This document shows, one piece after another, positions 47,142 through 52,003 of a stretch of DNA of 64,000 bases; position 1 is the stretch's first letter, and every line of letters begins with the position of its first letter. The translations under genes and the position numbers were made by a program. The notes beneath the pieces are model-generated. The model had not been told where the DNA came from, did no database searches, and saw only the letters and a list, made by a program, of their open reading frames with translations. Source of the stretch: Bryobacteraceae bacterium (GTDB taxonomy: Bacteria; Acidobacteriota; Terriglobia; Bryobacterales; Bryobacteraceae); NCBI GenBank assembly GCA_030041495.1, contig JASHNT010000141.1:1-64000 (forward strand), given 5' to 3'.

Positions 47142-47471
47142 CTAGCGGAACGGGATGTCGACTTCAGTGTAGCCGGCAGGCATGGCCCCGTTCACTGCAG
47201 CGGCGATCCGTTCGAAGTGCAGCCGGACGCGCGACCACTTTGTAGTTCCTGTCAGCACCACAATCGCGATCCTTCTCCCTGCCAGGTTCTGTTGATACCG
47301 GATCCTTCGGTCGGTAGTAACGAAGAGGTCAATCGCCGCTTCCTCAGCTGCCTTCAATAGTTCGCCGTTCGTCAAGCGGTCCCAGCCACGGGCCTGGGCC
47401 GTGACCACCGTATGACCTGGAAGAGCGCGGATCAGACCGCGGGGTGTTCCGTGGTCAAAGAGAATGAGCAT
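47142..47471 (-). CDS. DUF5615 PIN-like toxin
   Basis: 109 residues. LILFDHGTPRGL and VTTDRRIRYQQNL carry the acidic residues of the PIN-like active site (DUF5615), a toxin class predicted to cut RNA. It is intact, unlike the other two toxins in the window. The start overlaps the antitoxin by 17 bases in a different frame. No Shine-Dalgarno is needed if translation is coupled. The rest of the fold is seen in IVVLTGTTKW. Confidence 0.88.
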   Translation of the reverse strand: MLILFDHGTPRGLIRALPGHTVVTAQARGWDRLTNGELLKAAEEAAIDLFVTTDRRIRYQQNLAGRRIAIVVLTGTTKWSRVRLHFERIAAAVNGAMPAGYTEVDIPFR

Positions 47472-47706
47472 CGGCCGGTACGGGTGGCACGGGGGCCTTT
47501 AAGCTCTGCGCGACGAACTCCAGCACGGCAGCGATCTGTTCGCGGCTGACGTCGAACTGCTCCATCACTTCTTCGATGCTCAAGTCCTCTAGGTTTTCGA
47601 TGACTGTTGCAACGGGCAGGCGAGTGCCGCGGAATACCCACGCTCCGCTCACTCGGTCTGGGACGCTCTCCACCGCAGGGCATTGGGACCAGTCGATTGC
47701 GGGCAT
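47455..47706 (-). CDS. DUF433 antitoxin
   Basis: 83 residues. The DUF433 core WVFRGTRLPVATVIENLEDL followed by SIEEVMEQFDVSREQI is that of the antitoxins paired with DUF5615 toxins. It precedes the toxin gene, as is usual, and overlaps it. The ATG at 47706 has AGGAGG 9 bases upstream. Confidence 0.9.
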   Translation of the reverse strand: MPAIDWSQCPAVESVPDRVSGAWVFRGTRLPVATVIENLEDLSIEEVMEQFDVSREQIAAVLEFVAQSLKAPVPPVPADAHSL

Positions 47707-47833
47707 GCGTGTCCTCCTGCCTCCAGGATACGCTGCCGAACGCGAGCCGCTAGGCCACCGTTCCAGTCATCCCTGAGCAGTCGCTCGGTGTACGCTTGGA
47801 GGCAGGGGTGCCGGCAGGGTGGCCGAGGACGCG

Positions 47834-48799
47834 ATGAACTTCGAAGACTATAAGGAAATGCGGAATTCGCCGCTAGAGGACTTTGCGACCATTCACAATG
47901 TATCCGAGGGCGCCGAATTATTCAGGCTTTTTGAGTCTTTTCAAGAGGCTCGGTGGGCCTTTCGTGGTCAAGGTAGCGACCGCGCGCCCGCGGCGGGAAT
48001 AGAGAGGGTTGCGGTCAAGCCGGGCGTGGCCGAAGACTTTGTGATGCGCGAATTCAGGCGGCGCGCCCACCAGTATGTTCGGGATTTACCCGACATCGAC
48101 GACGATCTTGAATGGCTCGCTCTAATGCAGCATCACGGCGCCCCAACACGATTGCTTGACTGGACCCGGTCCCCACATGTTGCGGCATTCTTCGCGGCGG
48201 AGTCGTCCAATTGGAAACCGTCCCACAAGGCGACGGCAGGAGATCCAGTCGGTCCGTTCATCATATGGACGGTTGACACTGACAAGGTGAACGCCGAGGC
48301 AGCGCTGATGCTGGGCCTGCCGGAAAACTCGGACCTATCGTCCCGCGAAAACTTCAGGCGAATCTATTGGACGCGGCCGCCGGAGGGTATTTACCTGGTG
48401 GCAGCCGTTCAGCCCCACAGGATGAATGAGCGCCTCACCATCCAGCAGGGAGTGTTCCTTATGGCCAACCACGTTCTGTTCTCCTTCAGGGACTGTCTAA
48501 AGGGCCTCCTGCTTCACGCAAGGAGGAAACACAGCAGAAAGTGGCTACATAAGATCGTCTGCGCGCCCGCCATGCGCCTTGACGTGCTCAGCGCGCTTGA
48601 TCGGGTCAACATCAGCTCCGCGACGCTATTCCCGGGCTTAGATGGCTTTTGCAAGTCACTTTACGTCACTCCTCAGATCCGGGAGACCGAGGACTGGCCG
48701 CGAGTTTCCCAGACCAGCGATCGGGAGCATTGGGTCAAAGGCGCCCCAGCGCGCTCCGGCCCACCTATAGCGCGGCGTCGCCCCGGTCGTCGTTCCTAA
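47834..48799 (+). CDS. FRG-domain protein
   Basis: 321 residues without signal or membrane segment. WAFRGQGSDR and LMQHHGAPTRLLDWTRSPHVAAFFA are the two signature blocks of the FRG domain (named for Phe-Arg-Gly), found in proteins linked to phage defence and toxin-antitoxin genes in some genomes. A second conserved block ERLTIQQGVFL follows in the C-terminal half, and the tail is basic. It is next to an intact toxin-antitoxin pair. The ATG at 47834 (GAGGA 4 bases upstream) is preferred over the GTG at 47819. It ends 35 bases into the convergent glnK gene. Confidence 0.85.
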   Translation: MNFEDYKEMRNSPLEDFATIHNVSEGAELFRLFESFQEARWAFRGQGSDRAPAAGIERVAVKPGVAEDFVMREFRRRAHQYVRDLPDIDDDLEWLALMQHHGAPTRLLDWTRSPHVAAFFAAESSNWKPSHKATAGDPVGPFIIWTVDTDKVNAEAALMLGLPENSDLSSRENFRRIYWTRPPEGIYLVAAVQPHRMNERLTIQQGVFLMANHVLFSFRDCLKGLLLHARRKHSRKWLHKIVCAPAMRLDVLSALDRVNISSATLFPGLDGFCKSLYVTPQIRETEDWPRVSQTSDREHWVKGAPARSGPPIARRRPGRRS

Positions 48800-50545: not shown

Positions 50546-50623
50546 TTCCTGTCAGTATAAGCACATTCGAGATCGTGCGTATTTTCATAAGTTTTTCAAC
50601 CCGCACTGCTAGGATGGAGCCGT

Positions 50624-52003
50624 ATGTCCCAAGACTCGGCTTGGCCTTACCGGATGGATGACGATGACGGCGGCGGATTCTTCGATGGGTTTGACGATGG
50701 CTCCAGCGGTCAGGACGACGGCTCCTACGACGATGGGCAGGACGATTCTTACGACGATCAAGATGAGTCCTACGAAGACGATACTGGCGACACGAATGAT
50801 TCCGAGGACTCGGACGGTTCCAGTAACGGCGGCGATGGTAATGACAGCAACGGCGACGACGGCAGTGACGATAAAGGCGACTTTGACGATCCTGATAATC
50901 TGATCGGTCTCGACCATGGCACCGCGCTCTCCGCGGCCGATTTCCCCAACTCGACCGACGCAGATTTTCAGGACGACGATGGATCCTGGACCCCCGATGA
51001 TTACCAGCAATCCGCCGCCAATCTTTTCGGCGATCACGAATTCTTCGGCGATACGATGGCCACGCGGCGCGCCGACGAAGGTTTTGCTCCGTTCGCCGAG
51101 CCCGGCTTCGCACTGGGCTTCGAGCAGGTCGCGCCCGGCAGTTCGGAAACCCTGCAATTGTTCGAGCGCGACGGGCAGTTGCACGCGTTCGGCTTCGTCA
51201 CGCAGGCGATGCTCGCGTACTTGACGGCGCGGTATACGGGCATCGATTTCAGCAATGTGGACGTATCCGTGCCGCAACGAGGAGAGCCGGTTCCACCACA
51301 GCCTCTGCCGCCTGCCTTCGATTCCGTTCCGGTGCAGGACGCGGTGGACCTGCGCAAATACTGCTCGCCGGTCGGCGATCAGGGGCAGACCTCGCGCTGC
51401 TCCGCCTTCGCTTGGACTCACACGGCCGAGCTGGTGGCGAACATGAAGACCGGCGAAGCTCCGCGCCTATCCTCGACTTTTGCGATGCTCGAATTTCAGC
51501 GGATGCAAGGCGACGCGCAGGATTACGCCTACGCGTATTCGGGCGGCGACGGAACCTCGGGAGGTCCTGATCCGGGGCGTGTGCTCGCCGAGGAAGGCAC
51601 CTGCCGGCAGGAATTGTGGCCGGACGACAGCGAGAGGCCGCTGAGCTCCGAACGTAATTTGGCCACGGATGCCGAGCGGCACAGACTGGATGCAACGCCC
51701 CATCCGATTGCGCTCGAAGACATCCGTAAGGCGTTAAGCGCCGGATGTCCCGTGCATGTCGCGATGAACACGGGTCCCGCGTTTGCCAATGTCGGCCGCG
51801 ACGGGTTGTTCAACGCGTCTGAGCCTCCCAGCGGCAGGCATGGCCGCCACGCCATGTTGATTGTCGGCTACACCGGCAATTTCTACACGCTCAAAAACTC
51901 GTGGGGTGAATCCTGGGGCGATAAAGGCTACGGCTACGTCCCGCAAAGCGTGCTCGCCAATTCCGATGCCGAGTTTGTCGCGGCTCTGGTAAAACGAGAC
52001 TGA
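50624..52003 (+). CDS. Papain-like (C1) protease with an Asp-rich N-terminus
   Basis: 459 residues in two parts. Residues 11 to about 105 are dominated by Asp with Gly, Ser and Glu, with no signal peptide. About residues 230-459 form a C1A protease: Gln-251 in GDQGQ, catalytic Cys-259 (SRCSAFAW), His-409 (GRHAMLIVGY) and Asn-425 (KNSWGESWG). The linker (about 120-230) resembles no domain I know. Bacterial C1 proteins usually carry an export signal; here the acidic region could be a propeptide, a calcium-binding stretch or a secretion element. TAGGAT lies 8 bases before the ATG. Confidence 0.82.
   Translation: MSQDSAWPYRMDDDDGGGFFDGFDDGSSGQDDGSYDDGQDDSYDDQDESYEDDTGDTNDSEDSDGSSNGGDGNDSNGDDGSDDKGDFDDPDNLIGLDHGTALSAADFPNSTDADFQDDDGSWTPDDYQQSAANLFGDHEFFGDTMATRRADEGFAPFAEPGFALGFEQVAPGSSETLQLFERDGQLHAFGFVTQAMLAYLTARYTGIDFSNVDVSVPQRGEPVPPQPLPPAFDSVPVQDAVDLRKYCSPVGDQGQTSRCSAFAWTHTAELVANMKTGEAPRLSSTFAMLEFQRMQGDAQDYAYAYSGGDGTSGGPDPGRVLAEEGTCRQELWPDDSERPLSSERNLATDAERHRLDATPHPIALEDIRKALSAGCPVHVAMNTGPAFANVGRDGLFNASEPPSGRHGRHAMLIVGYTGNFYTLKNSWGESWGDKGYGYVPQSVLANSDAEFVAALVKRD

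Follow-up and report, generated by a model that had tools for sequence, protein, structure and literature searches.

The gene at positions 50624-52003 of the forward strand encodes a papain-type C1A protease in which a family-specific, prosegment-like domain and an acidic tail, conserved in composition and carrying a conserved tip, precede the catalytic domain. Here, "the window" means the whole stretch of DNA analysed, that is, 64,000 nucleotides of contig JASHNT010000141.1 from a Bryobacteraceae bacterium. The C1A class itself is known; it is the combination that is new, and the layout is undescribed in the literature that we searched, which takes in few subscription journals. The layout has three parts, and the middle one was overlooked in the initial annotation. 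Our preferred reading, which we put forward tentatively and rate slightly below even, is that of a xylellain-type C1A protease of the cytoplasm that is kept in check by the prosegment-like domain fused to it, with the tail acting as a charged arm for docking and solubility.

The ORF begins with ATG and encodes 459 amino acids, and the description first given of it, an Asp-rich start on a C1 protease, was borne out by both the ORF and the PF00112 match given below. The sequence GGAG lies 4 nt 5' of the ATG, and no sigma-70-like site was found 5' of the gene within the stretch scanned. An in-frame TAA is located 11 codons upstream (50588-50590, forward strand), and neither the sequence nor the ORF scan of the window offers an ATG, GTG, or TTG between this stop codon and the ATG. 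An N-terminal extension carrying a signal peptide is, therefore, ruled out for the window protein, and the protein lacks a signal peptide, as initially stated. This is ordinary among bacterial C1A enzymes; C1A proteases that stay in the cytoplasm are common among bacteria.

The C1 catalytic domain occupies residues 237-457 (51332..51994, forward strand). Peptidase_C1 (PF00112) matches residues 239-439 with an E-value of 2.2e-13 and a score of 51.2 bits (the cut-off being 20.7) and is the sole Pfam family to match above its cut-off in the full protein. The active-site set of peptidase family C1 (Gln, Cys, His, and Asn) is complete. Cys259 (51398..51400, forward strand) and His409 (51848..51850, forward strand) are kept in all 25 aligned orthologs, as is Gln253, while Asn425 (51896..51898, forward strand) and Trp427 are kept in all 24 that reach these columns, the 25th ortholog being cut by the end of its contig. 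Conservation among the aligned orthologs thus upholds the intact triad that had been proposed. Identity to the window protein across this domain is 63-84% in the 23 other complete rows. The only invariant cysteines are Cys259 and Cys327 (Cys247 occurs in 17 and Cys375 in 19 of the 25 aligned orthologs); no conserved pair of non-catalytic cysteines could, therefore, form a disulfide, in keeping with a cytoplasmic location.

Orthologs were found in a narrow group of bacteria. Searching 61 near genomes with the full-length protein returned 10 places at 58-100% identity (window included), together with 14 other C1 places at 23-33% identity to the full protein. When the species genomes of GTDB were scanned with peptides from the C1 part, 14 loci were found at 65-84% (best segment), all of them in Acidobacteriota and most in Bryobacterales or Bryobacteraceae; the same scan returned 12 distant C1 relatives, none of which has an acidic start when translated and read by eye. 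Within the Bryobacteraceae, 25 of 237 genomes, from 8 of 76 genera, encode this C1 protease (15/148 if one counts the better genomes). The initial annotation knew of no example with this architecture, and the genome searches agree, in that the combination was not found outside one family.

The tree of the C1 part puts the 25 orthologs together to one side of a weakly supported branch (63/53; found in 60% of bootstrap trees), a single very long row (L001) being placed next to them; within the group, they sort mostly by genus. From this, we infer a single origin with inheritance that was mainly vertical and numerous losses. Some loci are irregular. One ortholog (L040; L089/L091) is split over two frames in its assembly, owing either to decay of the gene or to an error of assembly, and genome G497 (94% complete, 8% contamination) has two copies of the protease on two contigs (L087 and L090).

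The middle domain, residues 85-236 (50876..51331, forward strand), is a conserved, family-specific domain in a position like that of a prosegment, and it ends in a Pro-rich linker. Residues 103-236 have a mean column identity of 71%, and the 23 other complete rows are 47-81% identical to the window protein in this domain. The predicted secondary structure includes helices at 124-135, 145-151, 160-169, and 194-203 and strands at 177-182, 185-193, and 207-216. The linker residues P217, G220, P227, L228, and P229 are invariant in a 16-row alignment. Judged from the sequence, such conservation would be unusual for a cleaved activation site and speaks against a propeptide that is cut off.

Database searches gave this domain no name. 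The middle domain of the window member has no Pfam match, and Inhibitor_I29, which we take to be the family name for the papain-type prosegment, matches neither the full protein nor any of 16 middle-domain members at E-values up to 1. Two Pfam families match one middle-domain member each, with E-values of 0.1 and 0.14, which we took as chance; we treated in the same manner the PDB profile matches to WD-40-type repeat chains (whole-chain E-values down to 1.1e-4, with no single stretch passing), to one surface protein (0.093), and to viral glycoproteins (1.2-1.9). No sequence match to any known inhibitor domain appeared in Pfam or in the PDB profile search, the best match in PHROGs had an E-value of 0.24, and PADLOC and NCBIfam returned none. 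No copy was found in plasmids, phages, or viral contigs. Of 399 genomes of the class, 8 have the domain, in every case within the family of the window and inside this C1 protease; of 396 genomes drawn from the phylum, one has it, namely the window's own. So far, it has been found only inside the C1 protease of Bryobacteraceae.

Two AlphaFold2 models were made. The first (16 rows) was poor, with a mean pLDDT of 63, and was superseded by a second built from 42 rows that included distant C1 enzymes, which reached a mean pLDDT of 86 and a pTM of 0.81. In the latter, the block means for the middle domain are 89-97 from residue 91 onward. The pTM lies near the value of 375/459 = 0.82 that corresponds to all but the tail being confidently placed, which suggests that both domains are placed with confidence. 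The two-domain fold and its packing are predictions of this model. Structure searches were queried with the full-length model, the middle domain included. Xylellain (3ois) was the best match in VIA-align, with a Z of 22.1 and an rmsd of 3.1 over 239 residues (model residues 168-459; the next match has a Z of 20.1), and it also ranked first by Foldseek. In a viral fold library, the strongest matches were mostly C1-type enzymes.

What sets the zymogens apart in VIA-align is the length and start of the alignment, not its rank. Nine pro-form or zymogen entries (1xkg, 6czk, 6czs, 3tnx, 4qrx, 7pck, 5egw, 4i04, and 3qt4) align over 235-249 residues, whereas mature enzymes align over 194-213 residues with nearly equal Z. 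Among the zymogens, pro-Der p 1 has a Z of 20.1 (238 residues), procathepsin H 19.8 (247), propapain 19.8 (239), procathepsin K 19.1 (237), the proform of Amb a 11 19.0 (244), and the cathepsin B1 zymogen 18.9 (249). The surplus over mature enzymes is roughly 25-45 residues: 44 for cathepsin H (mature form, 203 aligned residues), about 30-37 for cathepsin K (202-207) and Der p 1 (201-208), and 23 between the zymogen of cathepsin B1 and its intermediate (226). The zymogen alignments begin at model residue 123-152, that is, within the domain 85-236. Because these longer alignments reach into the domain, the model would place it roughly where prosegments sit; the ranges from VIA-align give only first and last residues, so contacts in the cleft are not visible from them.

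The blocking of the active site that the initial annotation had proposed is, therefore, plausible for the domain 85-236 rather than for the acidic part to which this role had been assigned. The strongest rival to our reading is that the enzyme is constitutively active, with the middle domain as a structural extension and the tail as no more than an electrostatic tag for solubility or spacing. An invariant linker is what one might expect of a fixed joint, and by Foldseek TM-score over the query, the zymogens (about 0.36-0.42) hardly stand apart from the mature enzymes (about 0.34-0.39). The longer VIA alignments with zymogens speak against it, as does the tip of the tail described below, and we consider it unlikely, the most credible of the alternatives nonetheless.

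The acidic tail comprises residues 1-84 (50624..50875, forward strand) and is rich in Asp, Gly, and Ser. It is predicted to be disordered, with pLDDT below 50 for residues 1-84 in the first model and block means of 44-50 for residues 1-80 in the second, after which the block means rise to 71 (81-90) and 95 (91-100). An acidic part of about 95 residues had been described as preceding the C1 protease. The acidic character and the N-terminal position were correct; the length was not, as the disorder ends near residue 84, and the acidic part does not directly adjoin the protease, as the conserved middle domain intervenes. Residues 1-102 of the window protein contain 36% Asp+Glu and have a net charge of -35, and Pfam predicts no unrelated domain in the acidic region.

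Every one of the 24 aligned orthologs whose start is complete has a strongly acidic tail, these starts having been picked by us. Counted to the column of residue 103, the 24 tails are 53-120 residues long, with 35-57% Asp+Glu and net charges of -25 to -54, whereas identity to the window protein is 19-51%, with many gaps, in the 23 other complete rows. We also ranked 482 mechanical six-frame ORFs of at least 100 aa, taken from the window and nine ortholog loci, by their most acidic 80-residue stretch. The top ten were the window protein and its nine orthologs (D+E fraction 0.375-0.54; next ORF 0.24), and the acidity is, therefore, more than chance. In four of five pairs, the dN/dS of the tail was 0.19, 0.03, 0.19, and 0.20, values that are rough as they come from low-complexity alignments; the dS of the fifth pair was unmeasurable, and in all but one of the other four, the tail exceeded both domains. 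The tail keeps its composition and charge while its length and sequence drift, as would also be seen if it were a solubility tag and nothing else.

The exception to this drift is the extreme N terminus, where residues 7-20 (50642..50683, forward strand) form a tip consisting of an aromatic residue, a run of Asp, and another aromatic residue. The aromatic-DD-aromatic pattern occurs in 22 of the 24 complete starts (L037 and L088 being the misses) versus 2.6 expected from shuffled tails; since the pattern was written after the data had been seen, and since the orthologs are related, this count is descriptive and not a test. Phe, Trp, and Tyr make up 111 of 600 residues at positions 2-26 but 39 of 1074 in the remaining tail. 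It is this tip that a pure solubility tag would not need.

The tip may also be a tag common to further proteins. A first pattern matched only three orthologs in 26 genomes. A second was found at 43 places in 17 genomes, and among the 30 loci that were read, six were ortholog starts. A further nine had a start codon no more than 12 residues upstream (L095, L098, L100, L108, L109, L110, L112, L117, and L122); we rejected these by eye as gene starts, the mechanical ORFs that contain them being either long or very short.

Another reading is that the tail itself folds back over the active site in the manner of an acidic propeptide. Its N-terminal position would suit this role, and the aromatic residues of the tip could conceivably fill a hydrophobic subsite. 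The catalytic domain (net charge -2 to -13 in 25 rows) and the middle domain (-16 to -22 in 25 rows) are both net negative, however, so that attraction of the tail by overall charge is unlikely, and it is the middle domain that is confidently placed while the tail is predicted to be disordered. We give the idea very little weight.

The initial annotation also suggested that the acidic part may bind calcium, for which we found no support. On this account, the tail would resemble RTX, dockerin, or thrombospondin type 3 repeats, and calcium would gate folding or activity. The Asp and Gly content is indeed high, and DxDxDG-like matches occur in 8 of 16 rows; the window protein, though, has neither these nor the RTX nonapeptide GGxGxDxux, and there is a single RTX-like match in the 16 rows. 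The lack of sequence conservation in the tail and its predicted disorder (in AlphaFold2 models run without calcium) point in the same direction, and we regard calcium binding as the least probable of the readings weighed here.

A third role proposed for the acidic part was secretion by a route not based on a signal peptide. In this case, the tail would be an export signal for a route other than Sec or Tat, such as the type VI secretion system (T6SS) or an extracellular contractile injection system, and the protease would be secreted. A conserved N-terminal tip is compatible with such a signal, and within the genus, TssB is present in 6 of 8 carriers of the protease versus 3 of 15 non-carriers. 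This trend is gone across the family, where TssB is found in 16 of 25 carriers versus 162 of 237 genomes (the nine carriers counted as lacking it, namely G008, G017, G451, G025, G296, G502, G343, G514, and G516, are those absent among the matches listed). These numbers show no association with T6SS, and we rejected secretion by T6SS; a phage-type contractile sheath was found in 0 of 23 genomes of the genus.

The gene neighbourhood also bears on export, and we compared it in 15 loci (the window and 14 others), several with short flanks. In the window, the protease gene is flanked on one side by the AmtB and GlnK genes, which are divergent, and on the other by a gamma-glutamyltranspeptidase gene. 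The AmtB-GlnK pair lies beside 4 of the 15 loci, a PilZ-like gene beside 5, and in 3 the next gene downstream is STAS-like (Pfam bears out PilZ in L029 only and STAS in L041 only), and other neighbours are common to two to four loci. With a maximum of 5/15, no neighbour is general, and we rejected the neighbourhood as a means of naming a partner. The lack of a general neighbour speaks for a mere solubility tag and against export; the proposed secretion went unsupported, and we judge export improbable.

Some neighbours deserve recording in their own right. The STAS-like gene follows the protease gene immediately in three related loci (L039, L040, and L041); in L039, the two genes overlap by 4 nt, and in L041 (6731-7099), the product matches PF01740 with an E-value of 4.6e-13. 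In the window, positions 47142-47706 of the reverse strand hold a DUF433 gene (PF04255, E 9.6e-11) followed by an overlapping gene for a 109-aa protein with no Pfam match at E 0.001, an arrangement that we take to be laid out like a toxin-antitoxin pair. These two small genes adjoin an FRG-domain protein gene (PF08867, E 4.9e-20) at 47819-48799 of the forward strand; FRG proteins occur in defence islands.

Our preferred reading, restraint by the middle domain together with docking by the tail, would work as follows. In the cytoplasm, where the protease probably resides, residues 85-236 would pack on the catalytic domain near the classical prosegment site and, by covering the cleft, hold the enzyme in check. 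Residues 1-84 would form a disordered, polyanionic arm that keeps the enzyme soluble and, through both its charge and its aromatic tip, docks it on a partner or substrate of positive charge. Docking, or a cleavage, would then shift the middle domain and open the cleft. To our knowledge, the restraint of a papain-type enzyme inside the bacterium's own cytoplasm has been little studied. Since a self-contained domain is predicted near the prosegment position, and since the charged arm carries a conserved tip, both restraint and targeting can be tested in one protein by truncation.

Among known systems, xylellain and the short bacterial C1A enzymes are the nearest, sharing the C1 fold and the triad and supplying the top structural match. 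A short relative (L020), 28% identical to the window protein, is encoded in the same genome, and xylellain-like short relatives such as L002, L014, L042, and L044 have no obvious signal peptide by eye, their starts again being picked by us. They differ in that none of those read has an acidic tail, while those aligned, at 22-29% identity, lack the 85-236 domain. Xylellain-type enzymes have a single domain and a short N-terminal segment, whereas the window protein has 236 residues, including a separate predicted domain, ahead of the catalytic domain. Unlike the window protein, the distant C1 relatives L001, L049, L050, and L052 look exported by eye. The zymogens of papain and the cathepsins (1xkg, 6czk, 3tnx, 7pck, and 4i04) have an N-terminal domain on the catalytic domain, as is predicted here; in contrast to them, the window protein has no I29-type match, no signal peptide, and a conserved linker.

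The acidic tail recalls a different protease, GCNA/ACRC, whose protease domain is presumably a SprT-type metalloprotease. The N-terminal region of GCNA is described as disordered and as acidic in mouse and human, with a composition that is kept and a sequence that cannot be aligned; it holds short conserved motifs and, in human, is found on a protease (PMC5098910). By this analogy, the arm might mimic nucleic acid and capture basic proteins that bind nucleic acids, with the middle domain as a latch that opens on capture, which would make the enzyme a counterpart of GCNA and Spartan in its working, not in its descent; to this we assign a low probability. GCNA/ACRC is eukaryotic, has a SprT-type fold, and bears a zinc finger and SUMO motifs, whereas Peptidase_C1 is all that Pfam finds in the window protein. 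The likeness is one of layout, an analogy and not homology. The protease family also offers a bacterial case of an acidic, predicted disordered tail in which the charge and a short motif have persisted through the drift of the sequence.
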